Origin: Hexactinellida sp. DTS-2022 | Lineage: Eukaryota > Porifera > Hexactinellida | DNA length: 64,000 nt | Direction: 5' to 3' | NCBI GenBank assembly: GCA_028753945.1 | Contig: JAPNXP010000002.1 | Span: 12,276,001-12,340,000, forward strand | Part shown: positions 13,920 through 64,000 of the stretch, piece after piece | How positions within the stretch are numbered: the first letter of the stretch is position 1 | Layout: each line of letters begins with the position of its first letter | Program-made: the position numbers and the translations under genes | Notes under the pieces: generated by a model | Databases searched by the model: none | Told to the model about the DNA's origin: nothing | What the model saw: only the letters and a program-made list of their open reading frames with translations

Positions 13920-16468
13920 CATAGCCTACTATACATAAGGCCTCACAGTAAAATATGATATCTGGACCAGGGATGCGGTCGCCGCCGGGAAACGAAATTG
14001 CAATTTTTTATCAAATTTAGTGACATTCCGCTTGAAAACAGATATTCCGGTGACTAGCAACTGTAATAAAGTAATACGTATACTCTCATTATACCATTAA
14101 TCTTATTACTTTGTGAGTTTGAATAACATACACAATACAAAACTACTAGAAAACCTCTATTTAGGTAGATATAGTTACTTCACATAAGACAACTAACTCG
14201 TATCTAAATAATCAGGAATCGAACTTTTTCAATTTCCGCTTTTCTAATCCCTTTAAAGTAAGGCTCGAATTGTAATTCTTGACAAGATTTGCAATTAGAC
14301 AATTTGCTCACTCCGAACGAGACTTGATAGAATGGTTGAACCTTTCACATTACAAGAAGGACAAGTAGTTCTCCAACCTTCAAAACTACTATCAAGACCA
14401 GTTAGGGAGCCAAAAGCAAGTGTTACTAAAATCTTTCTAGTTTGACCTTCTATCAACAGGGACATAAGTTCACTATTACTTTGGATTATAGTTAGAATCT
14501 TCCAAACAATAATTAACGATTCCAATGCAAGCTCTGAAGGATACTTTAGACCACCACGATCAGAAAGCTGCAGTAGTTGGTACCGGAATTCGAAGGATTC
14601 CTGTTAGGAACACAAGGATGAGGTACACATGTTTCAAGCTTACCAACAGGAGAGAATAGTTTGAATAACTTGACGTTAAGAGGATAGTTATCTGTTGAGA
14701 TTACATCCACACATAAACCACAAGTTTCGATATCTTTAATACAAGCGAGTATGATGGGGAATATCTCCTCAGCGGAAAGCGAGGCACATGGTAATAGACG
14801 AACTATAGTAGACCATTTTTTCTGGAGACTTGATACCATAATCTTTATTGGATCTTCTGGGCTTAGACTAGAGCCATATATCTTGCCTCCTTTATATGTG
14901 ACATCAGATTTTACGTGAATTTCGTCCATTTGCATAACGATATGTTTCTCAGCTTCAGTGAAAGAATTTGTCGCTTGCTTGAGGAAAGGAAAGAATTCAC
15001 ACTCAAGTCCGAATGAAGAATACAACTTCTCCAAAGTGTTGACATGAGGCAGAGATAGACAAGCCATTTGTTGAAGATACTTATAACATGCTGGTGAAAT
15101 TAAATGTGCTTTAAGTGCCATAAGCTGTGTGAGGATGTTGTACCTCCGCCTGTTTTTGGGTACAATACTGTTTTCAAGCTGACATTGGATGAATTGAAGC
15201 CTGGATATTTCGGGGGAATCAGTTAGTTAATAAGTTATCTCTAATTCACCATTAGATGAAAGTACTTTGTTAATGAGTAGTTGGATATTGTCCTTCGCTA
15301 AAGATAAAGTCTCATTAACGGTCTTTGAAACAGATTCAGTGGACAGAACAGGACGAGGGGATATAGAAATCTCACAGAGAATTGATTCAAGGTGTCGTAT
15401 ATCGCTGATTGAGCAAATTGGAATTGGTAAAATTTCTCCATTACGATAAGCTCTAACTGACAAATCGAAGGACACTAATATATGGGTGTTGACAATGATA
15501 TTGTGTTCTGTCAGTAGAGGTAGCATATAAATTAGACTATGATCATCTGGGTACCATAAAGACCATGTTTTAGGTAGGGAAATCAAAGGTAACTTAGCTT
15601 GGGTATCCTGGAAACAATTGATCTGATATTTATCTTTCTCTTCGCTCTCAGATGCCAGGCTAAGTGTTAATGCTTCATTGAACATTTCCTCATCTTTTGA
15701 TGTAGGTGACACACATCTGCGCTATTTGGAGCTAATAGATTGAGAACAGATTGAAGGGTGTCCTGGTAGAAAAACTGGAACGGCACCATCTTTTAGCTTT
15801 GGGTTGACTCTTGGAATTTCACGATAAGTACCATCTCCGTTTGGAACTTTGTGAGTATACTCAACATCCTCCTGGCGAAAATGATTTACACTCACGTAAA
15901 CCCCCTTGAATGATAGTAAATCGTCTCTCCGAAGAACCTGAAGCCATCTGTGTCTTAGGTCATCTGGTTTCGTAGGTAGTTTAAAAACTGGGACACGGTG
16001 ATCGTCGTTGTAGTTGATTTTGCATCCGAAAATGGCACAACTGTTGGGCATCGTTAGAAAAAAACTAATAAATTAATGGTAGTAGCATAAATCAAATTAT
16101 AAGGTTAATTTTTAATAGGGAAATGGGCTCTGTAGGGGTATTGTACTAATGAGAATGAGATAAATAAATAACAAGATGGATTATTTAGCTCTAGAGCGTA
16201 ATAAAAGTATAAATTTGCTATGTATGTTATATACCATAAACCACTTATTTATATTATGGGTGAATAACAACACAAAATTCTAAAATTAGCTTTGTGGTTA
16301 ATATGCATATTTTTCGATATATATCGACTGCTAGTCACCGGAATATCTGTTTTCAAGCGGAATGTCACTAAATTTGATAAAAAATTGCAATTTCGTTTCC
16401 CGGCGGCGACCGCATCCCTGGTCCAGATTTCATATTTTACTGTGAGGCCTTATGTATAGTAGGCTATG
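13920..16468 (-). mobile_element. P-superfamily transposon (P2), 2.5 kb, with long inverted ends
   Basis: Inverted terminal repeats of about 130 bp begin CATAGCCTACTATACATAAG at both ends and run to GGAATATCTG and beyond. The element is flanked by the 7-bp repeat CGTCAGT at 13913-13919 and 16469-16475. Uninterrupted copies of the target occur near 20271 and, inverted, near 10900. CA...TG ends and 7-8-bp duplications fit the P superfamily, and the minus-strand transposase inside confirms it. The copy has lost the C-terminal part of its gene, so it would need transposase from elsewhere. Confidence 0.93.
14295..16051 (-). pseudogene. P-element transposase with THAP domain (P2), two in-frame stops and a deletion
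   Basis: Translation starts at the ATG at 16051. Residues 1-90 form a THAP domain: MPNSCAIFGC gives the first cysteine pair, FKLP follows, and the block VYVSVNHF should read VCVKHF as in copy P1, so the third zinc ligand is lost. AVPVFLPG ends the domain. After an in-frame TAG (15722-15724) the same frame continues through a helical region, an in-frame TAA (15227-15229), then the catalytic part: HIVMQMDEIHVKSD with the first Asp, TYKGGKIYGSS, IMVSSLQKKWS, and a later Asp in STDNYPLNVKLFKLFSP. Near 14560 the frame jumps to the insertion-domain region (ALESLIIVWKI) and stops. The C-terminal LTGRLQTDPLE block is missing. Expected product: nuclear DDE transposase; dead here. Confidence 0.9.
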
Positions 16469-24235: not shown

Positions 24236-24544
24236 CAGAATATTTGATATAGTGATAATGGTGGGGACATCTGATTCGTGGCCAAATTATCACTATATCC
24301 AATATATCACTATACCCATTATATCACTATATCCACTGTATCACCGCATTTAATATATGACTGTATACATTGTCAATACTTATATTCTGAAAAGAATAAT
24401 CAAATTCCTTATCAAATTCAAGTGGTAACGATATTTATACAGTAAAATATGAAATTATGGGGTCCAAGGAAGGTCAAAAATCCAATATTCTTGTGTAATC
24501 CGTACACAAATTATCACTATATCCAATAATGATATCACTATAAT
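24236..24544. mobile_element. Pogo-type MITE (copy B), left part
   Basis: Starts CAGAATATTTGATATAG after TA (24234-24235) and continues with the ATCACTATATCCAATAT words of copy A. It is cut at 24544 by a P element and resumes at 33654. Together with the right part it forms one MITE with TA on both outer sides. Confidence 0.8.
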
Positions 24545-24798
24545 CATAGCCTACTCTATATTTGGCCTACCATCAAAGCTAATATTTTGCACCAAGGATG
24601 AAGTAGTGTACGATATTTTTATTGACCCATAGTTATTTACATTTATCTCTGTACAGTTAGAAATATTTTAAATTTAGTTGGATCAACTTGTTACTGATTT
24701 TTGTTAATTTTTAGTAATTAATTAATCCAATTCTCCTTCCACCGATATTTTAAGCACTTCCTAGTACTATATTTGACTTTGTTTCTTTTTAATAAATA

Positions 24799-24992: not shown

Positions 24993-25016
24993 TAGTTAGA
25001 TATTTAATTTTTCTCA

Positions 25017-26123
25017 ATGCCGAACTGTTCTGCCCCTGGTTGTAGGGGTAATTATACCCCAGAAGAGCGCGTCCCAGTTTTAACTTCCAGATGGTTCACC
25101 TGAGTTACGACATGCCTGGATACGTGCTCTCCATCGTGAGGATATTTCTGACCTCAAAATGGTGTATGTGTGTGTTAAACATTTTCCGAAGGAAGATATT
25201 GAATATTTTCACACGATATCCAGAGGAGATGGCACATCCTATGAGGTCCCGCGAGGAAGACCCAAATTAAATCCTTGCGCTGTCCCCTCTCTCCTTCCTG
25301 GTTGTCCGTCTTATTATTCCTCTACCCCTTCAATTAGAATCAAACGAACTCGGTTCTCTTACTACTCCAAAGAGGAAGATTTATTGAACCAAGCAACTAA
25401 TCTCAGCTTGAGATCAGAGAATACAGAAATGGAGAAGTTTCGTGTTGGTTGTATACAAGAAATACGAGATAAGTTAGCTTTGATAACAATCCCAACTGAC
25501 TGGTTAGTTTGGATTCAAACAGATAATTGTGTGAGATTTTTTTTCCTAAGATGGAAATTCATAATATTTGTGCAGGTGTTTCTCTTGAAATAATTCTTTT
25601 TATATGTGAACGGATATATATGGGGAGTCCATTTCTCTCTCACTTATCTCTATCACTGATATCCGACAAATTGAAACGCTGTTTACAGAGATTACTCTGA
25701 AAAGCTCTTCCCCTCAGAAGAAACATCCTCCCATATCTCTAAAGCAAAATAACATATTGAGGAGGCCATTTGTAATCTATTAGATAGTGATGAAACAGAA
25801 TCCAATTGTTCCGATTTGCCAAGATTACAATTTATTCTTGGCCAACTAGAGAATGTGGGTATTTACAAGAAGAGAAGGAGATATAATGTTCTTACACAAA
25901 TTCTGGCCATAAAAACGCATCTGGTTTCTCCTGCTAGTTACAAATTCTCCAAAGTTCAGAATGCATTTCTTTTCCACATGTTCACACACTAGAAAAGTTG
26001 TACTCTTCTTTTGGGCTGGAAAACGGCTCTTGTACTTACCTTAGCCAGGTAACTTCTTCTTATAGTTCTCAAGAGAAGAATGTAATTATTCAGATGATGA
26101 AATCCACGTTAACTTCAGTCTGA
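25017..26123 (+). pseudogene. P1 transposase, part 1: THAP domain to catalytic start
   Basis: The ATG at 25017 opens MPNCSAPGC, the first zinc pair of a THAP domain. A frameshift near 25080 moves the frame to LPDGSPELRHAWIRAL, with the invariant Trp, and VYVCVKHFPKEDIEYFH keeps the Cys and His ligands that copy P2 has lost. CAVPSLLPG closes the domain near 25300. The helical part follows (EEDLLNQATNLSL) with stops after 25590. Around 25820-25950 LPRLQFILGQLEN and RRRYNVLTQ match copy P2, and near 26080-26115 the catalytic QMDEIHV is reached with a one-base loss. The Mutator-like element begins at 26124. Best copy for the zinc ligands, but disrupted by several shifts and stops. Confidence 0.88.
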
Positions 26124-26220
26124 GGGGTGGGAAGCCCCGGAAGGGTGGGAAAATATTTGGGGGTGCATGCATTAGTTAGAATTTTGAAGTTGCCATTAGT
26201 AAGAATATCGAGAACTGTCG

Positions 26221-26375
26221 TTAGTCAGAATTTCTATTAGGAAAATTGGCATTAGTCAGAATTTCTATTAGGAAAATTGGCATTAGTCAGAATTTCTATT
26301 AGGAAAATTGGCGTTAGTCAGAATTTCTATTAGGAAAATTGGCGTTAGTCAGAATCATTTTGTGGAAGATTGACA
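26221..26375. repeat. Left subterminal tandem repeat of the MULE, period 31 bp
   Basis: TTAGTCAGAATTTCTATTAG followed by GAAAATTGGC repeats with starts at 26221, 26252, 26283, 26314 and 26345. The copies are nearly identical, with CATTAG or CGTTAG variants. Confidence 0.92.
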
Positions 26376-26495
26376 TAGACTCTTAAGTAAGAAAACATAT
26401 ATTTGTATGCATAATAGTAAGTGTGTAATTGTAGTAAAAATAGGTAGGTATTAGTTAGCACAACCAAATAAGTACGAAAGGCTATATGAATTGAA

Positions 26496-28088
26496 TTAAT
26501 TAATGAATATTTGAAATCTGGTCTCTATAGTCGATCGGCATACCGGACACTGTTGTCCCAAATCTACCAAAGTCTGGCTGCATCCAGCACAACAATTTGC
26601 ATGCCTACAAGGCATGAAAATCCAAGTTTCGTTTCGGATCCTAAGGCATACAACACATATATTTCCAGCTGCATCATTTTGTATTTCTTCATCATCTGAA
26701 ATCTCTGAATCGCTCGAGAGGTCTTCAGTAATATTCATATTCCCAATGGTGTGACTGACTGCTTGCAAATATTCCCATGGAGTATAATGTCCATCACTAA
26801 GCTTCTGTTTGCAAATTCTCCTTTGGTCTTCATTTTTAATACTATGATTTTTCCTTGGCCTGCTGATCTGTTTACCAAGGTGCAAGCGGCCTATATCATT
26901 ATCTGTATCCTGTATTATGTTATTGATATTGGCAATGAAAGTCCAGATTCTGGGATGATTCGTCTTGATTACAGATTTGAGTTTTGAGTGATAACTCTCT
27001 GCTGAGTTATTTGTGGTAATATTTGCATCGTAAATAGAGAGCTCTTCTGGTGTTATTTGAGTCAACCAACGTTTTTTGAAATATTTCTTCATTTTCTCCA
27101 GTTTAATCATCTCGATATCTTCTAGAGACGGCATTTGGAGTAGACTATACGTAGGGTAGATCAAAGAAGGTGGTAAAAAAGGAATTGCCATCAGTTGTTT
27201 TACAAATTTTTGGATGAGGAGATTATTCTTGAAACCGTCGCTGAGGCCCACTTTTTGAGTTTTAGCCCATATTCGCTGGGTAAAATGGAACCAGCAACCA
27301 TAAACTTGAATTCCAGGATATACTTCTTTGATCGCATTACGAGATCCAGCTTCCCAATCTGACATGGATGTCAAAGGCTTAAACTGTGGAATAGTAGCCC
27401 GTATCTTCTCCAATATTTCTTGGTATAGCTCCTGTGTCTTTGAAGTCATCAGACAGTGTAAGGCGGGTAGCGTATGCCTTCCCACAGTAACAAATATAGT
27501 CCACAGCTGATAAAATTGAGCTGGAACAGTATAGAATGTTCCATCAAATTGGATGTTGCTAATCTCATTTAAACGATCCACCATTTTGTTGGAAAAGAAG
27601 ACGACTGCAGTTTCATTCCCACAGGTAACGGAAAATTTATAGTAATTTGCTAAATTTGATGTAGGCAGAATTGCACAAAATTGGGAAGCGTTTAACGGAA
27701 TTTTAGGTTGTAAAGTTCTTCGCGCACGGTACATTGCCGATTCACATTCTCTGAAGGATATATCGCATGCGCAAGGATCTGTTCTTGTTACATCATCGAA
27801 TGCCTTTCTGAGATTAATTTGAGTATGTTTCGCGATTGTTTTGCACTTAGTTTTTAGTTGGAAGATTTCAGCTTTATAGTCTTCAATGCCATGGTTGTGT
27901 TGGTTTAAAGGAGAGATTAAATTTCTCTCGCGATTAAATTTACCGGATCCTTTACAACACTCTCTAAATAATACGCACTTGAGGTATATGTATTTCTCCA
28001 TGATTTTGGAATGGATATACTTGTGTCCATCCGAAGTTGTATATATTTTTCTTGCGGTCCTTCTGTATTCTTCAACAGTGTATTCCAT
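26496..28088 (-). CDS. MULE transposase with C-terminal RING finger, 530 aa
   Basis: Uninterrupted frame. Residues about 30-70 look like a FLYWCH-type zinc module (YIYLKC, RECCKG, HNH). The MULE transposase core follows: IQFDGTFYTVP with Asp182, MSDWEAG with Asp244, the CWFH pair (Cys265, His268) and NNSAESYHS with Glu364, the DDE triad. After an acidic Ser/Asp linker (about 455-470) comes a RING-HC finger: Cys478, Cys481, Cys494, His496, Cys500, Cys503, Cys514 and Cys517, ending CPVCR. Such fingers usually recruit E2 enzymes as ubiquitin ligases. Expected role is DNA cutting and joining of the MULE ends in the nucleus; what the RING does is inferred only. The intact frame inside a broken P gene points to recent insertion. 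The start is the first ATG; none better is seen upstream. Confidence 0.93.
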   Translation of the reverse strand: MEYTVEEYRRTARKIYTTSDGHKYIHSKIMEKYIYLKCVLFRECCKGSGKFNRERNLISPLNQHNHGIEDYKAEIFQLKTKCKTIAKHTQINLRKAFDDVTRTDPCACDISFRECESAMYRARRTLQPKIPLNASQFCAILPTSNLANYYKFSVTCGNETAVVFFSNKMVDRLNEISNIQFDGTFYTVPAQFYQLWTIFVTVGRHTLPALHCLMTSKTQELYQEILEKIRATIPQFKPLTSMSDWEAGSRNAIKEVYPGIQVYGCWFHFTQRIWAKTQKVGLSDGFKNNLLIQKFVKQLMAIPFLPPSLIYPTYSLLQMPSLEDIEMIKLEKMKKYFKKRWLTQITPEELSIYDANITTNNSAESYHSKLKSVIKTNHPRIWTFIANINNIIQDTDNDIGRLHLGKQISRPRKNHSIKNEDQRRICKQKLSDGHYTPWEYLQAVSHTIGNMNITEDLSSDSEISDDEEIQNDAAGNICVVCLRIRNETWIFMPCRHANCCAGCSQTLVDLGQQCPVCRSTIETRFQIFIN

Positions 28089-28229
28089 TTTGATTTCTCT
28101 GAAAAGTGATGCATAAGAATTTATATACTTTCAAGATTACCTCACCCATTTTACACACATGGAAGTTGATATACATTACAAGGATTCCATAAATTGAAAC
28201 TCAAAATACAATATCATTGACGAGATTCT

Positions 28230-28445
28230 GACAAATCATAATAATCGTTGAAGGGATTCTGACTAATGCCAATTTCCTAATAGAAATTCTGACTAACGCC
28301 AATTTTCCACAAAATAATTCTGACTAACGCCAATTTTCCTAATAGAAATTCTGACTAACGCCAATTTTCGACAAAATGATTCTGACTAACGCCAATTTTC
28401 CTAATAGAAATTCTGACTAACGACAGTTCTCGATATTCTGACTAA
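28230..28445. repeat. Right subterminal tandem repeat of the MULE, inverted
   Basis: Repeats of ATTCTGACTAACGCCAATTT alternate with CCTAATAGAA and CCACAAAATA or CGACAAAATG spacers. They are the inverse of the left array, but with a two-spacer alternation that the left side shows only once. Confidence 0.9.
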
Positions 28446-28515
28446 TGGCAACTTCAAAATTAGGACTAATGCAGCTTCCCCAATATTTGGTCCTAACTTA
28501 TCCCCTGAATACCCC

Positions 28516-29431
28516 ACAAGAACTGTATTTGCTATCATGGTTTCTAGTTTACACAAAAAATGGTCCTGTATTTCTCGTTTGATACCTTGCGCATCTATAT
28601 CTGCTGAATACCTTTCCTATAATTAAGTGTTGTATTTTGGATATCGAATCTTGCGGTTTGAAAGTACAGATTATTTCTACCGACAATTACCCTTTAAAAG
28701 TGAACTTATTCAAGTTATTTTCTCCACTAAACAGTTAGAGACTAGTGTACCACACCCTTCTGATACTAAAAGAAAACTCTATGTTACTTTTGACTTTGTG
28801 CACATTTTCAAAAGTATTCGAAACAACTGGTTGAATCAGAAAGATATTCGGAAAACCTTTCACTTTCCCAACTTTCAGAACATTAAGCTGGATTACTGTG
28901 TGTATCCTGTTCAAGTTTACTCTGCATCTTTTAGTGTTGTGCGTCTCCTCTATAATTTAGAGAAAGAATCCTTAGCTAAGTTAGCACCTAGCTTGACTAT
29001 CAAAGCTTGTTACCTTCTGCTATTGAGCGCCAAAATATGAAACTTGTTTTAAAAGTATTCAACGAATTAACTGTTGCAGCTCTGAAGTTACTGAATGAAC
29101 TCCGTAACCAAGAAGACCGAAACAATACACACGACTTTGTTGAAATGCTTTTTCAAATTTGGAGACTTTTCAACATAAATTCTCCACTTAAAGGTAAACG
29201 TTGGAATGATGATATCTCAAGACCTCTAACATACCAGGGCGAACGATTTTCATTCTTAGCTTGTGTTGTTATTTGGTTAGAGACTTGGCTGGTCTTGCCA
29301 GGAAATGTAGGAAAGTTAAGTAAACAAACGTTTACCAGTTCTAAACATGCTTGTACTGTATTGCTTCAGATAACTAAGCATTTAACTGGATTTTGTGGAT
29401 TTAACTATCTTTTGACATCCTTTTTACAGAC
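28516..29431 (+). pseudogene. P1 transposase, part 2: catalytic middle and insertion domain
   Basis: Resumes after the MULE as FAIMVSSLHKKWS and IPCASISAE, matching copy P2. A shift near 28620 follows, then TDYFYRQLP replaces the STDNYPL block and LETSVPHPSDTKRKLYVTF and VHIFKSIRNNWLNQKDI continue. Near 29000 a shift leads to AIERQNMKLVLKVFNE, the start of the region that in P elements interrupts the catalytic core, then LNELRNQEDRNNTHDFVEM and SKQTFTSSKHA. The frame reaches the last codons before LTGRLQT and is cut at 29431 by an inverted-repeat element. There are two or three lesions, otherwise well preserved. Confidence 0.87.
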
Positions 29432-30822
29432 GGGGAATTCCATGTCAAGTCAACCAGTCATTTCACCACTATCAATCGATTTGTCTGTAAATTGCTGTGT
29501 AACAAGCTACAAGCAAGTTTATACTTTCCTCAAAATTTTAGACCAATCGGTTGAGTGGTTTTTGATTTATGACGTCACAGATTTTCATTTTTTTGTTGAT
29601 TATCCAAACATTTTTCAAAATGTTGAAGCACCATCTCACTTCAAACTCGTATAACTTTTGATATAATTATACAATTCTTTAAAAAATTGCTATACTTTAT
29701 GTTTTTATATATGGAGAATTCAAATTAGATGGATATATTAAGTTATCAGTTGTTTTTATTAGTGAAAATTAGAACTGAAACCAATACCGGAAGTAGAACC
29801 AAAACCATGACGTAACAAAAATCTATATTTTCGGATCTCTTTTATTTTTTGGTAATTTATTGTATGTAGTCTTAAGTCATTGTCTAGAAAATTTCATTAT
29901 GGTTTCCATATCTTCCCATTGAGTTATTCACATTTTTGTCCTCTAAACGCTATTTATGTGATACTACAACTTATTAATGTTCTTTATAAAAATAGAATAC
30001 TGGCTAGAACCTTACTCTATTTCTATCATATTGATAAATATTTCATATTTAAATAATTATTATCACCAGTGTATTATACAGCCATTTGTAAATACGCTCC
30101 TAATCCTGGTCTGATGCAATTTCATACGCCTAAATCACAAATTATTGTTACCGTATAGGAGAGGATTCCAAATTTTCGCGCTCCTAAATTCCAATTTTCC
30201 AAAAATCATACTCCAAAAGGAGCGTCTCGCGCTCCTGGATAATTCCTTGATTATCACTCATTCCAACAGCATTATACACAATTGATATACGTGTGTATCA
30301 GAAATTTGTGGTTTGTGGTATGTTTGACCTCCGATACACTACCATGTAAATTAAAATGCATTAGTATTGTTGCTATGTTTAATAAGAATGCAATTTATTA
30401 AACTATTGAGCTGTGAAGTTAATATTACAGCATAAAAGTTATGAAACTTGATTATTATCTATTGATTCTATTTATTTGCATCACTTCGAATTCTGAATTT
30501 AGAAATCAATTTTTTTTGTTACCTCCCACTGAAAATTATCTTGTGATGACATTGGAGGTACAGTAAAAAAAAGTTACCGCCCGAGCAAGTTTACAGCAAT
30601 CAAAAGAAGGTAATATATTATCACTTATTCAAATGTTTAATATAGAGCTCTTAGATTATGTTGTAGTACACTTAATTATGTTTTAGATATGATAACATCA
30701 AAACTATACCAGTGACACGTACTTACCATAAATACACTCCAATAAGTGCAAAATTTATAGGAGGAAAGTGAATTAGTGACCAATTAGATTCCACAATAAC
30801 ATATGAATTTAAATGAAATCGT

Positions 30823-35883: not shown

Positions 35884-38800
35884 TTAATTTGGATGCAAAC
35901 TACTGTGAGCTGTCTTTTCTTTTAAATCAATTACAACTCCTAAAGACTGTGGAAGACAAGCAGGAGTAACACGACCGTACAAAACTAGATAGAGATTAGT
36001 TAAAAGCATTCGTATTTGTGGATTGAAAGCTGTAAAGAAATTCATTAATTTCCACAATCGTTCAACTAATTCCGGTTTGTTCATTCTAGAAGATTTCTTT
36101 TTTATAAAAGGTGGAGTGTTAATTAACAATTGAACAGCTTTTGATCTAAAACTGATTGTATTATGATTTTCAATTAAATCTAGAAAATACTCGAATATCT
36201 GTTCATCCTGTAGGGATGCTAGAACATCTGTTATAGCAGTTAGAGCTGCATATTGTACATTAGAATACTGACCATGGATGTAAGAAGTAAAAAAGTCCAC
36301 GTTTGTAGGTATAAAATCATAAGATTGGAAGAGCCTTATGGTAGCTAAACAACTGCAGGTGATTACATACTTGTAGGATGGCAGCAGTTTTTCAATGTTC
36401 ATTAAATGTATTATTGTTCTTACTATTTCTATTACTTCTTTCGAGAGAGATAAAAAATGTTGTTGAGTAGATATCGTGGTTGGCTTTGAGGATAAATAAG
36501 TTAATGGAATCGTAAGCGAAAATGACATTGCTTTAACTAATGAAGCTATGTAGAAATCATCTGAATAGTCATTGGAGGTATTTTCATTGTATTTCAAGAG
36601 GTCAAGTAGAAAATTCAAAATCTCTTTAGGCGTTTGTTGCTGCTGATTACGAATACCAGCGATTGCAATAGGCATTTCTTTTTGCAAGAAATAATAACCA
36701 AAATTAGAGAAATCATTTGGTGCTATAATGTTTGGAGATTCTTTACTCCCGTATAGTTTGTAAAAACAGTCCAGCATATTCATAGAGGTATCATCATAAT
36801 AGTATTTGTTGAGAAGTGGAATAAGAGATTGTATACACATAATCCTTACTCGGTAGAATATACTCGTGTCCAATAACATCTCGACTAATTGAGCAATCAC
36901 TTCTTTGTTATAACCTTGTGTCAGAGTATTGATCGAGTCTCTTTGGCTAAGGACATCTCTGTCATGTTTCAAAAGGTTCATCCACATGAGAGTAGGCTGA
37001 TCCACGGATATCTTACTCAACCAATACATTTGAGGGTCGGGTTTCACCCAAAGAAGTGGATATTCAAGCTCATTTGCCGTCAAATCCACTTCAATCTCGA
37101 GGCTGTTGTATAATACGCATTTCTGCTTACGTTTTGTTCTCTTTAACTTAGAGTGAAATTGAATCTCATGTTTGGTTATTACATCTTCAATTTGTATCGT
37201 ATGTAGATAGAAAGTATCTAACTCCTGTACGACAATAGCTAATGGACCAGTAAATTTGGCTTTTGTATTAGAAGATTCTTGCTTAATTTCAATGTCCAGG
37301 CTATTTTTTCGGCGATTAAACTCGTATCGAATTGAGATCGACGGAATGCCGTCTGAACATACCCAGTTGTACATAAAGCTGCTAATATCCTTCCCAGAAA
37401 CTGTCAAAATAAGGCGTACAAATCCAACAGTAGAGACGAGCATAGTGCCCCAATCTAATGAGTTCGAGCTTTTCGAGGCCTGAGAACAGAGAGCTAAGAT
37501 TTTCTGTAGTACTTTCAGAAGTATATCTTTCCCAATACGCAGTGATAACATTCTCATTACTAAAGATGCCCTGTCGAAAAATGCATTAAGTTCTTCGCTT
37601 GTAGCAAGCAAGGGGTGAAAAAAATTATCGGTATAAGTTGTATGTCGCCTATCAGTCGAACTTTGAGGTTTAGTAGAATTTATTGAAAGTGGTGCAAGCG
37701 TTGGTAGCTGTTCAGGACTGGAATAAAGAGCGAATGTGTTTGTTCCAGGTTGTGCATAGAACTCTGACACAGATTCTATTTTATCTCTGATAGCAAAATT
37801 GTACTCATTTGTTCCAAAAACACTTTTGAAAATTAACCCTGAAGCATATCCATTTATACCATGGATAATCCAGTAGTCATTCCAAGAAGCAGAACATAAA
37901 AAACAACCGAAATATTGAGCAGTTATCGCTTGAATAAATACTTTTCTAGTCTCAATAGCTTGATCAATTATTTCCCTGGGGTGGAGTAGATCTACACTGC
38001 AAATAGTAAGGGAAGAGTAAGACAACCAGTTTGGTATACAATCAGATACAAATACAATTTTATACATTGGATATGGTAGTACTAAGTTCAGTAGGTCATG
38101 TAGATAGTCATATACTCTCTGAAGAAAGGATACTGTGTGTTCTACTATATGGAACATACCAGGAAGATAGAAATAGGTTGCTTGTCGGTTAACAGGATCT
38201 GGGTACACCTCGAAGGTACCCACAACTAATCCTATGTTCGGTGCGGAAGTAGGTATATTATTCTGATACTTGAATATCTTTCTTTTAGTTTCTACCATAA
38301 ACTTATGGTCAATGAGTTCACCTGTAGCCACTGCGAAAGAAGTGCTAGGACAACAAATATTAATCTCCCAAGTACACAGCTCAGAATAGCAATCCACACA
38401 AGGAAACCAAAGCCTAGAGTTATTTCCTTGTGTAGTAGTGTACATATGACAGCCCTGAGGTGGTGCTATATTATCTATTAGTAGGGACGTATGGGGAATG
38501 ATAAACTGAATTCCACCCTTCGGTTTATCAAGTTTACATTCAATGTTCAACTTGATTTTGTTAGAGGAATATAATTCTGACGGAGGCAATGAGATTATGA
38601 GCTCTCCCAAAGCTTTAGGTAAATCCAAATCTGAAGTGAAAACATTTTCTTTGTTCGATTGGAAGAAAAACTTCGCGTCTCTTCGGATCTTATTGTTATA
38701 ACAAACCTCTAAACAGGGGTCAATATAAGTGAATTTAGCTTCTTTATTATTTACCAATAGTTTGATAATGCTGAGCTGTTGGCAGTTCAGAAAAATACGG

Positions 38801-38967
38801 GGTGGCTTTGAAGGGTTTTGTTGGATAAAGTTTAACTGTGTGTTTAGGCTAATAGAGCGCTTCTTGAAGTCTATATCTGTAATATTTATCACTTGTGATA
38901 CTAGCTTGAAACCTCGTGAGCTAGTGGGTAACTGAGGTTCAGATATAAACGAAGTTTGGCGACGCAT
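35884..38967 (-). CDS. TAF2: TAF2, TFIID subunit 2 (1027 aa, single exon)
   Basis: TAF2 is a subunit of the general transcription factor TFIID and contacts core-promoter DNA around the initiator. The protein has the M1-aminopeptidase-like fold of TAF2. The N-terminal beta domain includes GGIQFIIPHTS (about 151-161) and NSRLWFPCVDCYSELCTWEI (about 183-202). The region where active peptidases carry HExxH reads AITAQYFGCF (about 348-357), so the zinc site is absent, as expected for TAF2. SWNDYWIIHGINGYASGL (about 361-378) follows, then a C-terminal HEAT-like helical half. The first ATG, at 38967, fits the usual start of the family. Animal TAF2 is typically near 1200 residues, so this one is short at the C-terminus. 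No frameshift or intron is seen, which could mean an intron-poor gene or a retrocopy. It is the only clear host gene here. Confidence 0.93.
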   Translation of the reverse strand: MRRQTSFISEPQLPTSSRGFKLVSQVINITDIDFKKRSISLNTQLNFIQQNPSKPPRIFLNCQQLSIIKLLVNNKEAKFTYIDPCLEVCYNNKIRRDAKFFFQSNKENVFTSDLDLPKALGELIISLPPSELYSSNKIKLNIECKLDKPKGGIQFIIPHTSLLIDNIAPPQGCHMYTTTQGNNSRLWFPCVDCYSELCTWEINICCPSTSFAVATGELIDHKFMVETKRKIFKYQNNIPTSAPNIGLVVGTFEVYPDPVNRQATYFYLPGMFHIVEHTVSFLQRVYDYLHDLLNLVLPYPMYKIVFVSDCIPNWLSYSSLTICSVDLLHPREIIDQAIETRKVFIQAITAQYFGCFLCSASWNDYWIIHGINGYASGLIFKSVFGTNEYNFAIRDKIESVSEFYAQPGTNTFALYSSPEQLPTLAPLSINSTKPQSSTDRRHTTYTDNFFHPLLATSEELNAFFDRASLVMRMLSLRIGKDILLKVLQKILALCSQASKSSNSLDWGTMLVSTVGFVRLILTVSGKDISSFMYNWVCSDGIPSISIRYEFNRRKNSLDIEIKQESSNTKAKFTGPLAIVVQELDTFYLHTIQIEDVITKHEIQFHSKLKRTKRKQKCVLYNSLEIEVDLTANELEYPLLWVKPDPQMYWLSKISVDQPTLMWMNLLKHDRDVLSQRDSINTLTQGYNKEVIAQLVEMLLDTSIFYRVRIMCIQSLIPLLNKYYYDDTSMNMLDCFYKLYGSKESPNIIAPNDFSNFGYYFLQKEMPIAIAGIRNQQQQTPKEILNFLLDLLKYNENTSNDYSDDFYIASLVKAMSFSLTIPLTYLSSKPTTISTQQHFLSLSKEVIEIVRTIIHLMNIEKLLPSYKYVITCSCLATIRLFQSYDFIPTNVDFFTSYIHGQYSNVQYAALTAITDVLASLQDEQIFEYFLDLIENHNTISFRSKAVQLLINTPPFIKKKSSRMNKPELVERLWKLMNFFTAFNPQIRMLLTNLYLVLYGRVTPACLPQSLGVVIDLKEKTAHSSLHPN

Positions 38968-39294
38968 AATTAATTATAATCTCAAAAAGGAAAATCAAAA
39001 TAATAAATAGATTGTTTTCTGATAAATAGTTCCTAAATCTATACAATTATTCTGATACATAAAGTAAACCTGACTAGAAGTTTCGAATACATGGAGGCCT
39101 TCATCTAGGTGCGCAGCGCGCACCCATAGGATTTCAATACTAATTTTGGTCTTTTTAGCTAAATGTACTATTTTGGTAAATTTGGGTGCGCTGTTGAAAA
39201 ATCTATACACGTATCACCTATGGCCCTGTTGTATGAGATTTTACTACCAAGAGATTCTTTCTACTTTAAATACAAGGACCATGGATGATTCATT
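38968..39294. other. Upstream region of TAF2
   Basis: About 330 bp with no gene. This is where a TAF2 promoter and 5' leader would lie. No clear TATA box or initiator could be chosen with confidence. Confidence 0.3.
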
Positions 39295-49559: not shown

Positions 49560-50318
49560 ATAGTATAGATTAAGATACCTGTATCACGTGGTTGCAGACA
49601 AATAGGATTTTAGCTAGAGGAATGCTATGTAAATGCGGTAGCATGATGCGTCCTGGAGCATTTGCAGCTATATCAGAAGGAAAGGGGTGATGTCCGGAAA
49701 AACTGCAAAAGTTCGCGTCACTAAGGATTGGTTCATTTTCGAAGGTTCCAAAGTACCATTAACGTATTGGTAGAATTTCTCTATTTCTGGGCAGATAATC
49801 TGCAAACAACGGCATTTTTACACAATAATCTTGGTTGGGGAGAGCATACAATCACTGATTGGAAGAACTATATTCGTGACTTGTGTGTTTAAGTATTTTT
49901 AATTAATCCCAAACCAATTGGCGGTCCTGGACATATTGTTGAAATAGATGAATCTAAATTCGGGCACAGAAAATATTCCAGAGGTCGTTTACATTCAGGT
50001 CAATGGGTATTTGGAGGGATTGATAGAGAAACAAAGGAGGTTTTTATGATCCCTGTACTTGATCGGACAGCAGCAACTTTAGTCCCGATCGATGAATGGG
50101 CGTCGTATAATTTAATTCCTGCTAGCACATTCCAACACTTAACCGTTAACCACAGCGTAAATTTTGTAAATCCCACCACTGGTGTACATACCCAAACTGT
50201 GGAAAGTACTTGGGGTCAAGCCAAAAAAGGGATGAGGAACTCCATGACTACAAACCCGGAACTATTGGACACCTATCTGGCAGAAATATGTTGGAGAAAA
50301 AAATATGTAGAAGAATAG
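49560..50318 (+). pseudogene. Merlin transposase remnant (IS1595/ISXO2-like)
   Basis: After a cysteine-bearing part read in mixed frames (CGSMMRPGAFAAIS near 49650), an open frame from about 49910 shows HIVEIDESKFGHRKYSRG, with the first catalytic Asp and the usual basic RG turn, then WVFGGIDRETKEVFMIPV. About 15 codons seem lost before IDEWASYNLIP (second Asp). Then come FQHLTVNHSVNFVNPTTGVH and VESTWGQAKKGMR, the E/W block of this family. It ends at WRKKYVEE, where the P3 element begins. Merlin elements are cut-and-paste transposons related to bacterial IS1595. The N-terminal half is broken, so it is inactive. Confidence 0.85.
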
Positions 50319-61562: not shown

Positions 61563-62330
61563 ATGGCAACTAACTACCCAGTAATTCCCCCTATTGGGAA
61601 TACGGAGCGCATCTCAGACTGGCGCATATTATTCGAAGCCAGTACGGAACAGATCAGGGCTCAAGAGGAAGGAGAGAAGCGAGTCATTCAAATGCTCCCC
61701 GCTTACATTAACCGATCATTCGCAGACCGCGAGTGCGTGCGAGAAATTACGAAAACGGCTCAAACCGCGGTTGAGGGACTAGATGCACTGGCTGCTACGC
61801 TTGACCCACCCACGGACCAGTATAGCCACGACAAGCCCTGTGCAGGCTTACATGGCAGCCCGGGGAGTCTATCGACTGCTTTTTATTTAAAGTGAAACGT
61901 TTGGCCGCCGAATCAGGCGTAGACTTCAAGTTCGCAGCCTCGCTAGTGGCTTCCCAGCTTCCACGTGATGTAGAGGGCAAAATCAAGGCAACTGTAGTAA
62001 GCGCCGATGGTGACCTGGATAGCGCCGCAAGTCGTAAGCTGCTTATTGATATAAAGCGTGAGCTAAACGACCGTGGGTATGCACTTGACAAGGGTAACAT
62101 CGACCTAGAACGGATCGTTAAGGTCGCGGTAGTATCAGAGCCGGTCAGAGCTGATACGAGTTCCTGAACCAGCGGGTGACTCACGAGCACCAGATGCACC
62201 GGATGGACTAGCCACTCACGAGCAGTCAGTAGCCTATACCCAACACCAAAGAAATTGGAAAAGAGGGACAAGCAAAGCACAACCTCAGCACCGCCAGTCT
62301 GGATGTTACGTCTGTGGTGAAGATCATTCA
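61563..62330 (+). pseudogene. Ty3/gypsy gag, frameshifted
   Basis: MATNYPVIPPIGNTERISDW opens a capsid-like reading with DWRILFEAS and ALAATLDPP. The frame shifts near 61890 to FKFAASLVASQLPRDVEGK, and near 62160 to a Pro/Gln-rich tail that ends in a first zinc knuckle, CYVCGEDH. That knuckle is completed only in the next frame. Gag would package retroelement RNA into cytoplasmic particles. At least two shifts break it. GC content is clearly above the surroundings. Confidence 0.8.
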
Positions 62331-64000
62331 TGCGCTTCTGCCCACAGAAATGCTGCCCAGTGTGTGGTACCCGTGGACACTCTCTTAGCAACTGCCCCCG
62401 GAAGAAGCGCGGGCCGAAACAAAGAATCATGCAAGTAAAAAACCGTACACTCGGCTCAGAGCTGTTCGTCATACTCACTGTGAAACTAGACAACGCAGCA
62501 TTAGAGATGGTACTGGACTCCGGAGCGGGACCCTCGGTGATCGACCTGGGAACTGTACGATACCTTGGGCTGGAACGAGAGATAAATCTCCGCGCAGGGA
62601 TGGTGTACGGCGTCGGCCAAAATCCGGTACACCTTATCGGGAACATCACCTTGGACGTCGACATCGGTGACAACCAGATTGCCCGGCATTCATTCGGAGT
62701 ACTGGCAGATACCAACAAAACTCGAATATTGGGGCGGGACCTGCTTAGAAAATTTGGTCCCACAGAATTCGACTGGGACAGTCACCGCGTGCGCCTGGGA
62801 TCCGTGTGGAAAGATACCCGTGCAATCCTCCAGGGAGGCGATGCAATATCGCGTTCTGCCGTCGCTGCACTTGAAACCGAAACCAATAAGCAAGTACACA
62901 TTTCAAGTGGTTCCGCAATAGAAGGGGAACAACCCAAAATTTCGATCAACCCGGAATTACCAGAGCGAATCAGAAGGGAACTGGGTTCCTTAGTTTACGA
63001 GTTCTCCGAAGTATTTGCTCACAACCCTAAGTCACCAAACGTCACTCCTTTCGCTAAACACGCGATCCTAACAGGGGACAACCTGCCTGTTAAGAACAAG
63101 CAACGGCGCGTCTCCCCATCCACCCAGACGATGATAGACGATCAGATTACAGAGATGTTGCACAACGGGATCTGCAGTCCATCCAACTCACCGTGGAGCA
63201 GCCCGGTCATACTCATCACTAAGAAAGACGGGGGTACCCGATTTGTGGTAGACTACCGGGGACTCAACGACCTAACAAGGAAGGATGCATACCTAATGCC
63301 GAACCCGCGCGATATACTGGATACCCTCCTTGGAAATAACTATTTCTCTTCCCTCGACTGCGCAAGCGCATATTGGGCTGTAGGCATCGAAGCGGAGGAC
63401 CAACCGAAGACAGCCTTCTCTACCCCGCGGGGGCACTTCGAAATGACTCGAATGGCCTTTGGGCTATGTAACAGCCAGGCAACTAATCAACGGCTTATGG
63501 ATCAGACTCTGCACGGCGTAAGGCACTCCCACTCATACGTAGACGATGTCTTAATCCACTCTCCAAGTTTCGGCTACATATCAGCGATATCCGTGAGGCT
63601 CTTATGCGTATCCGCAGTGCGCGGATACAGCGACGCGCCGACAAATGCCGACTCGGATATCAACAGATCGAATTCGTCGGGCACTTGATTACTCCCAGCG
63701 GCCATAAACAACTCGCTAGCAACGTAGAGAAATAGTAGCTTATGAACCCCCTAAGGACAAGCTAGAACTACAGCGCTTCCTGGGCCTCGTAAATTTCTAC
63801 CGGGATTATAGATAGATAATATATAGATATATGATATCCCTAACATGGCCACCATTGCCGAGCCCTTGTACGCACTGACTCGGAAAGGCGTCACATACTC
63901 CTGGAACCCAGCATGCTACGAGGCTTTCAACACTCTAACCCAAACGTTAACTCGGGACCCCGTATTAATCTCTCATCCCGACTGGGACAGCCCGTTCTAT
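62330..64000 (+). pseudogene. Ty3/gypsy pol: zinc knuckle, protease, reverse transcriptase, RNase H start
   Basis: A 452-codon frame (62330-63688) starts within the zinc-knuckle region (CPVCGTRGHSLSNCP). The aspartic protease follows with VLDSGAGPSVIDL near 62513, ending ILGRDLLRKFG. The reverse transcriptase runs from about 63080: SPWSSPVILITKKDGG, FVVDYRGLND, SSLDCASAYWAV with the first catalytic Asp, and SYVDDVLIHSP with the YVDD pair near 63537. A shift near 63570 moves to IREALMRI and FVGHLITPSGH. Two stops near 63735, a small AT insert near 63808-63835, and then EPLYALTRKGVTYSWN and PVLISHPDWDSPFY open the RNase H region at the window edge. It is a recent but decayed copy. Confidence 0.88.

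Follow-up and report, generated by a model that had tools for sequence, protein, structure and literature searches.

A Mutator-like element whose transposase ends in a RING finger and may act as its own ubiquitin ligase

Here we describe a complete cut-and-paste Mutator-like element (MULE), probably of the FLYWCH type, in which a single frame encodes the transposase and a C-terminal RING finger resembling those of IAP proteins, MDM2 and MGRN1. We put at about 0.68 the probability that this RING makes the transposase its own ubiquitin ligase. The anatomy of the element, its insertion signature, and the family-wide presence and constraint of the RING were read directly from the DNA; ligase activity, dimerization, substrate and timing are what we infer from it. 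The first-pass annotation of the window (the whole stretch of 64,000 nucleotides that was analysed) had proposed that an intact MULE transposase carries a fused RING-HC finger, and this fusion proved to be common to a large family in the same genome and to be under purifying selection, which indicates that the module does something for the element.

Anatomy of the window element

The element and its surroundings comprise the following features.

25008..26160, plus strand: decayed P-element-like (THAP) target gene, left part (THAP PF05485, 8.2e-8; similar to the P-like copy at 14546-16072, minus strand)
26152..26160, no strand: left copy of the target-site duplication (TSD), 9 bp, identical to the right copy
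26161..28481, minus strand: complete RING-MULE element, 2321 bp, between the TSD copies (from TSD and inverted repeats; the target gene resumes beyond)
26161..26355, no strand: left terminal inverted repeat, trimmed at the TSD, with 31-nt tandem units towards the inside
26496..28088, minus strand: transposase-RING open reading frame, 530 amino acids and a stop
26499..26663, minus strand: C3HC4 RING and short C-terminal tail, residues 476-530 (Pfam, family conservation and solved-structure matches)
26664..26768, minus strand: acidic, serine-rich linker, residues 441-475, the fastest-evolving part (copy comparison)
26997..26999, minus strand: E364, beyond the PF10551 domain (position in the window copy)
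27276..27554, minus strand: MULE transposase domain PF10551, residues 179-271, including D182 and D244 (Pfam)
27891..27977, minus strand: FLYWCH-like Cys2His2 motif, residues 38-66 (C38, C45, H64 and H66 invariant in 16 of 16 members)
28286..28481, no strand: right terminal inverted repeat with 31-nt units (inverted-repeat arms and TSD)
28482..28490, no strand: right copy of the TSD, 9 bp
28482..29654, plus strand: P-element-like target gene, right part (similarity at 28483-28773; the remainder from an open frame and inference)

The frame had been reported without a strand. Its coordinates and its 530 codons stood, and it is read on the minus strand; the plus-strand reading of 26496-28088 contains many stops. 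Both domains proposed from the letters match Pfam above the curated cut-offs: the MULE domain (PF10551) spans residues 179-271 and scores 51.8 bits (cut-off 27.6; E 1.1e-13), and the RING (zf-C3HC4_3, PF13920) spans residues 476-523 and scores 44 bits (cut-off 27; E 1.9e-11). The MULE type was the sole catalytic core matched in the window protein by Pfam at E≤1, and a Transib/RAG-type core with a RING on its N-terminal side was not found at that threshold. The catalytic residues D182, D244 and E364 lie where they had been placed, with 61 residues between the two aspartates and 119 between D244 and E364. All eight RING ligands claimed for this copy are present (C478, C481, C494, H496, C500, C503, C514 and C517), in the spacing of a C3HC4 RING. 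The FLYWCH-like N-terminus is the weaker part of the proposal: PF04500 has no match in the window copy at E≤0.1, but weak matches at this threshold occur in 9 of the 16 aligned family members (best 2.9e-4). PF10551 is matched by all 16 (E≤0.1).

The element interrupts a dead P-element-like gene. In a related P-like copy at 14546-16072 (minus strand), similarity to the left flank runs as far as residue 382 and similarity to the right flank starts again at residue 398. The gene thus resumes past the element, which is a good check on the boundaries, and the insertion is an ordinary one for a MULE. The strand, the inverted repeats, the TSD and the nesting in a P-element-like gene are additions to the first-pass annotation. 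The untrimmed inverted arms (26148-26355 and 28286-28493) are 208 nt long and 87% complementary, and the terminal inverted repeats measure about 195 nt, so that the element has the long inverted repeats usual for MULEs together with a TSD (9 bp) within their range of 8-11 bp. The P-like copy at 14546-16072 is itself a second P-element-like gene with a THAP domain; it too contains stops, and its RNase H domain is of the P type (PF21787).

Other features of the window include a TAF2-like gene at 35884-38973 (minus strand), a single open frame of 1029 codons with the two C-terminal TAF2 domains (Pfam); a single exon of this size is unusual for an animal. A fragment of an IS1595/ISXO2-like transposase of Merlin type (49893-50318, plus strand; PF12762, 1.3e-10) and a fragment of an LTR-type retroelement with aspartyl protease and reverse transcriptase matches (62321-63688, plus strand) lie further along. 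Numerous short copies of a TATCACTATATCC-like word were seen by eye at 24240-24560.

A family of RING-bearing elements

In the 112-Mb genome, the whole protein found at least 89 places (81 of 2,533 candidates scored) and the MULE domain at least 150. The RING on its own gave at least 150 matches (150 of 601 candidates scored), a number filled by the family's own copies. Fifty-eight MULE-bearing loci were examined: the 30 best whole-protein matches, 20 of the 59 others, chosen by length, and 8 of the 150 MULE-domain places, picked for long frames and a spread of scores. The RING family accounts for 53 of these 58 loci, including three of the eight picked by MULE domain; this set favours long copies, since the query that found 50 of them was the entire protein with its RING. 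At 51 of the 53 family loci RING-coding DNA adjoins the transposase part, at times partial or in another frame; at the other two (L019 and L024) it is absent from the stretch examined. The five loci outside the family (L051-L054 and L058) have no RING in the stretch examined. The possibility that the RING occurs in no other copy, which the first-pass annotation had named as fatal to its proposal, is thus not what the genome holds. Searches for relatives beyond this genome, in collections without animal genomes, gave 63 pattern matches in viral contigs and 34 in prokaryote genome contigs, none of which was confirmed. In the genome itself, searches for the insect-type cuticle family PF00379 and for COX1 gave no match, which for PF00379 is no proof of absence.

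An open frame of more than 500 codons (stop to stop) that ends in the RING is present at 21 loci. Conservation counts over 17 copies leave out the near-copies L014, L042, L045 and L046, and the 16-row alignment also omits L037, whose first usable Met is late. Element ends were sought at 30 loci. Many of the top-ranking repeat pairs were internal repeats, and only pairs with GGG ends were counted; on this basis GGG ends with a TSD of 8-9 bp are present at seven loci, the window copy included (L001, L010, L011, L014, L041, L042 and L055; for L014 the accepted pair is the second-ranked one). The other 23 scanned loci have no convincing element ends or TSD, and for L032, L036 and L056 no TSD pair was found. 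L041 and L042 are nearly identical elements with different TSDs and are therefore separate insertions. L013 and L014 (G000:C13:4110534-4118550) lie in opposite orientation about 3.4 kb apart, with identical coding parts (dN and dS 0).

A search with the left terminal repeat found at least 53 places (40 of 75 candidates scored). Several of the matches form inverted pairs about 0.4-0.9 kb apart (for example C10:2686791-2687409, C16:3700278-3700828 and C4:1235354-1235794); these are probably internally deleted elements, which could be moved in trans.

Conservation and origin of the RING

Among the 17 distinct open copies, D182 and D244 are kept in all and E364 in 16. The RING is held to the same degree: seven ligands are kept in 17 of 17 copies and C481 in 16, and V/I480, Pro515, Arg518 and Ile521 are invariant in the same sense. 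The copy with the changed ligand is L011, an open full-length copy in which C481 is replaced by Phe; it still has a clean end and a TSD, so a terminal copy, at the least, tolerates loss of the RING.

The RING and the DDE part have nearly the same mean identity (0.49 and 0.48), and that of the linker is 0.26. Across 136 pairs, the ratio of change at codon positions 1 and 2 to that at position 3 comes to 0.56 in the RING and 0.58 in the DDE part, against 0.68 in the N-terminus and 0.79 in the linker. Almost every pair is saturated at synonymous sites (7 of 210 have dS below 1.2, and 5 of those are near-copies), and dN/dS was taken from the other two pairs. For L010-L015, dN and dS are 0.156 and 1.74 in the RING, 0.173 and 1.18 in the DDE part, and 0.270 and 0.92 in the linker; for L036-L037 they are 0.147 and 1.03, 0.179 and 1.56, and 0.548 and 1.05, respectively. 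These values correspond to dN/dS of about 0.09 and 0.14 (RING), 0.15 and 0.12 (DDE part) and 0.29 and 0.52 (linker). Distances in the RING and in the DDE part are correlated (r 0.82; none of 5,000 permutations was as high), as is expected of a single fusion inherited together. This match in divergence and constraint indicates that RING and core have descended together under equal constraint, and that the acidic, serine-rich linker drifted freely. A RING tail under the same constraint as the cutting core probably has a helping or controlling part in transposition.

The RING was probably gained once, before the present subfamilies split. Three RING-less MULE relatives from this genome (L054, L058 and the second frame of L026) align as far as the transposase extends and terminate at the start of the linker. 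In a tree of 37 rows with these three as outgroup, a branch with 100/100 support sets the 34 RING-family rows apart, a weak test given three RING-less rows. When far MULEs are included (42 rows, 34 of the RING family and 8 without), the label needs two changes, and one change in 24% of 200 bootstrap trees; for two of these rows (L019b and L029) the sequence ends before the C-terminus and absence of the RING was assumed. The 37-row tree is the same set without L019b, L029 and L051-L053. A labelling by open frames alone required 13 changes; it had counted broken copies as RING-less and was superseded by RING calls at the DNA level. A single gain is the simplest reading, drawn from few RING-less relatives, and the RING may have been lost in the sisters. 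Other FLYWCH-type MULEs without a RING in the stretch examined are present in the same genome (L054, L058, the first frame of L026, and the second frames of L019 and L029), and some of them sit directly beside RING-MULE copies. As to a host source for the RING, the genome has seven BIR matches, and the stretches examined from two BIR genes contain no RING.

Kind of RING, proposed role and known systems

The solved structures closest to the RING are those of MGRN1, CGRRF1 and XIAP when the single sequence is used, and those of BIRC3, BIRC2, MGRN1 and CGRRF1, followed by MUL1, MEX3C, MYLIP and MDM2, with the family profile. These nearest RINGs are E3 ligases, several of which (IAP, MDM2) require a C-terminal tail for dimerization. 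The family likewise keeps a C-terminal tail, consisting of I521, I527, F/Y528 and then one or two residues. We take the hydrophobic residue 480 and Pro515 to be E2-contact residues and Arg518 to be the linchpin. Judged by its residues, the RING seems suited to partner an E2: these three are invariant among the distinct copies, and the nearest solved relatives are E3s. Some RINGs merely dimerize or bind, and conservation of ligands and linchpin is no proof of activity.

We propose that the N-terminal zinc motif and the transposase would bind the repeat-bearing inverted ends and that the DDE core would cut, insertion creating the 8-9 bp duplication. The RING, held at the cut by the transposase and presumably dimerizing through its C-terminal tail, would then attach ubiquitin to the transposase, to chromatin and repair factors close by, or to both; the first-pass annotation had suggested repressors, the transposase itself or repair factors as targets. 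By analogy with the RING of RAG1, this ubiquitination may clear the complex, aid repair and limit dosage.

An unlikely alternative is that the RING serves the transpososome in dimerization or protein binding and has no ligase activity, the two end-holding subunits being joined through their C-terminal RINGs and tails. The conserved tail does recall the tail-dimerizing RINGs of IAP proteins and MDM2, and the counterpart RING of RAG1L is termed a dimerization domain in PMC7204232; a pure dimer would nevertheless have no need of the E2 and catalysis residues that all 17 copies keep. The dimer and the ligase readings are compatible. Less probable again is an attack by the transposase on the host's defence, in which the RING would target a repressor or silencing factor for degradation. 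The strong burst of the family is a possible outcome for such an evader, but apart from the short linker there is no fast-evolving substrate-binding part, and RING and core diverge in step. These two alternatives fit the conservation less well or have no direct support. That the window copy is a domesticated host gene derived from a transposase is very improbable: it is an intact single lineage with no close sibling (the next-best relative is 63% identical), but the inverted repeats, the perfect TSD, the dead P-like target and the numerous dispersed copies, some of them almost identical, are what a mobile family shows. Chance read-through of the transposase frame into an adjacent RING exon, confined to a single locus, is ruled out by the RING-coding DNA at the other family loci and by the same frame-end tail in divergent copies.

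RING-bearing transposases are already known, and RAG1 and RAG1-like proteins (Transib group) are likewise DDE transposases or recombinases with a RING of their own. By Pfam they belong to an unrelated superfamily, and the RING lies on the N-terminal side in RAG1 as against the extreme C-terminus here. The RAG1 RING is described as an E3 ligase that ubiquitinates RAG1 at K233 and histone H3, and its point mutants as poor in joining but not in cleavage (PMC3949197). In Chapaev, a RING is fused to the transposase in two subgroups (PMC4411706); by that description it follows the Chapa domain, which sets it apart from the combination of MULE core, FLYWCH-like motif and C-terminal RING found here.

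Among MULEs, the Ghost element of Myzus cerasi contains a RING zinc finger, reported on a separate 420-bp open reading frame beside a truncated transposase frame, with no inverted repeats or TSD found (PMC6446971), whereas here one frame carries both parts within inverted repeats and a 9-bp TSD. Membership of Ghost was rejected on one feature, the 61 residues between the first two aspartates as against the 84 given for Ghost (PMC13359780). The spacing from the second aspartate to the glutamate (119) falls just under the 120-135 residues given for most families. The Phantom/Muta group is described as having FLYWCH in some members, TSDs of 8-10 bp and inverted repeats of more than 100 bp with subterminal tandem repeats (PMC6446971, PMC5225508). 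The window element shares the TSD length, long repeat-bearing inverted ends and a similar transposase size, and weak FLYWCH matches occur in 9 of 16 members of its family, though not in the window copy; the likeness is one of description, the MULEs compared by sequence being those of the same genome, and the passages on Phantom/Muta in these sources do not mention a RING for its members. RING annotations also appear in the gag of Isis-like elements and in a fly Pao element (PMC3630058).

No RING fused to a MULE transposase was found in the open-licence PMC literature searched. The word RING has no occurrence in the main text of a 2026 survey of arthropod MULEs. The fusion may be catalogued in supplements or Repbase under a neutral name.

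Accessory modules listed for MULEs include OTU and SET (PMC6446971), and the RING-MULE extends this catalogue. We are evenly divided on a broader proposal, a convergence with RAG1 in which a second, unrelated transposase superfamily would have become a ubiquitin ligase through an IAP/MDM2-like C-terminal RING, the ligase functioning in transposition itself (by removing the post-cleavage complex, directing repair or setting dosage) and not being a passenger. Work in lymphocytes has had difficulty in explaining why RAG1 keeps a RING ligase next to its recombinase core. A transposase unrelated to RAG1 that shows this pairing, with the RING at the opposite end of the protein and with RING-less sisters in the same genome, offers a natural comparison. 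Since the Muta1 MULE is reported to move in yeast (PMC5225508), the function of the RING should be addressable in a simple cell. If the convergence is true, cut-and-paste transposases would share a problem to which ubiquitin ligase activity is a recurring solution.
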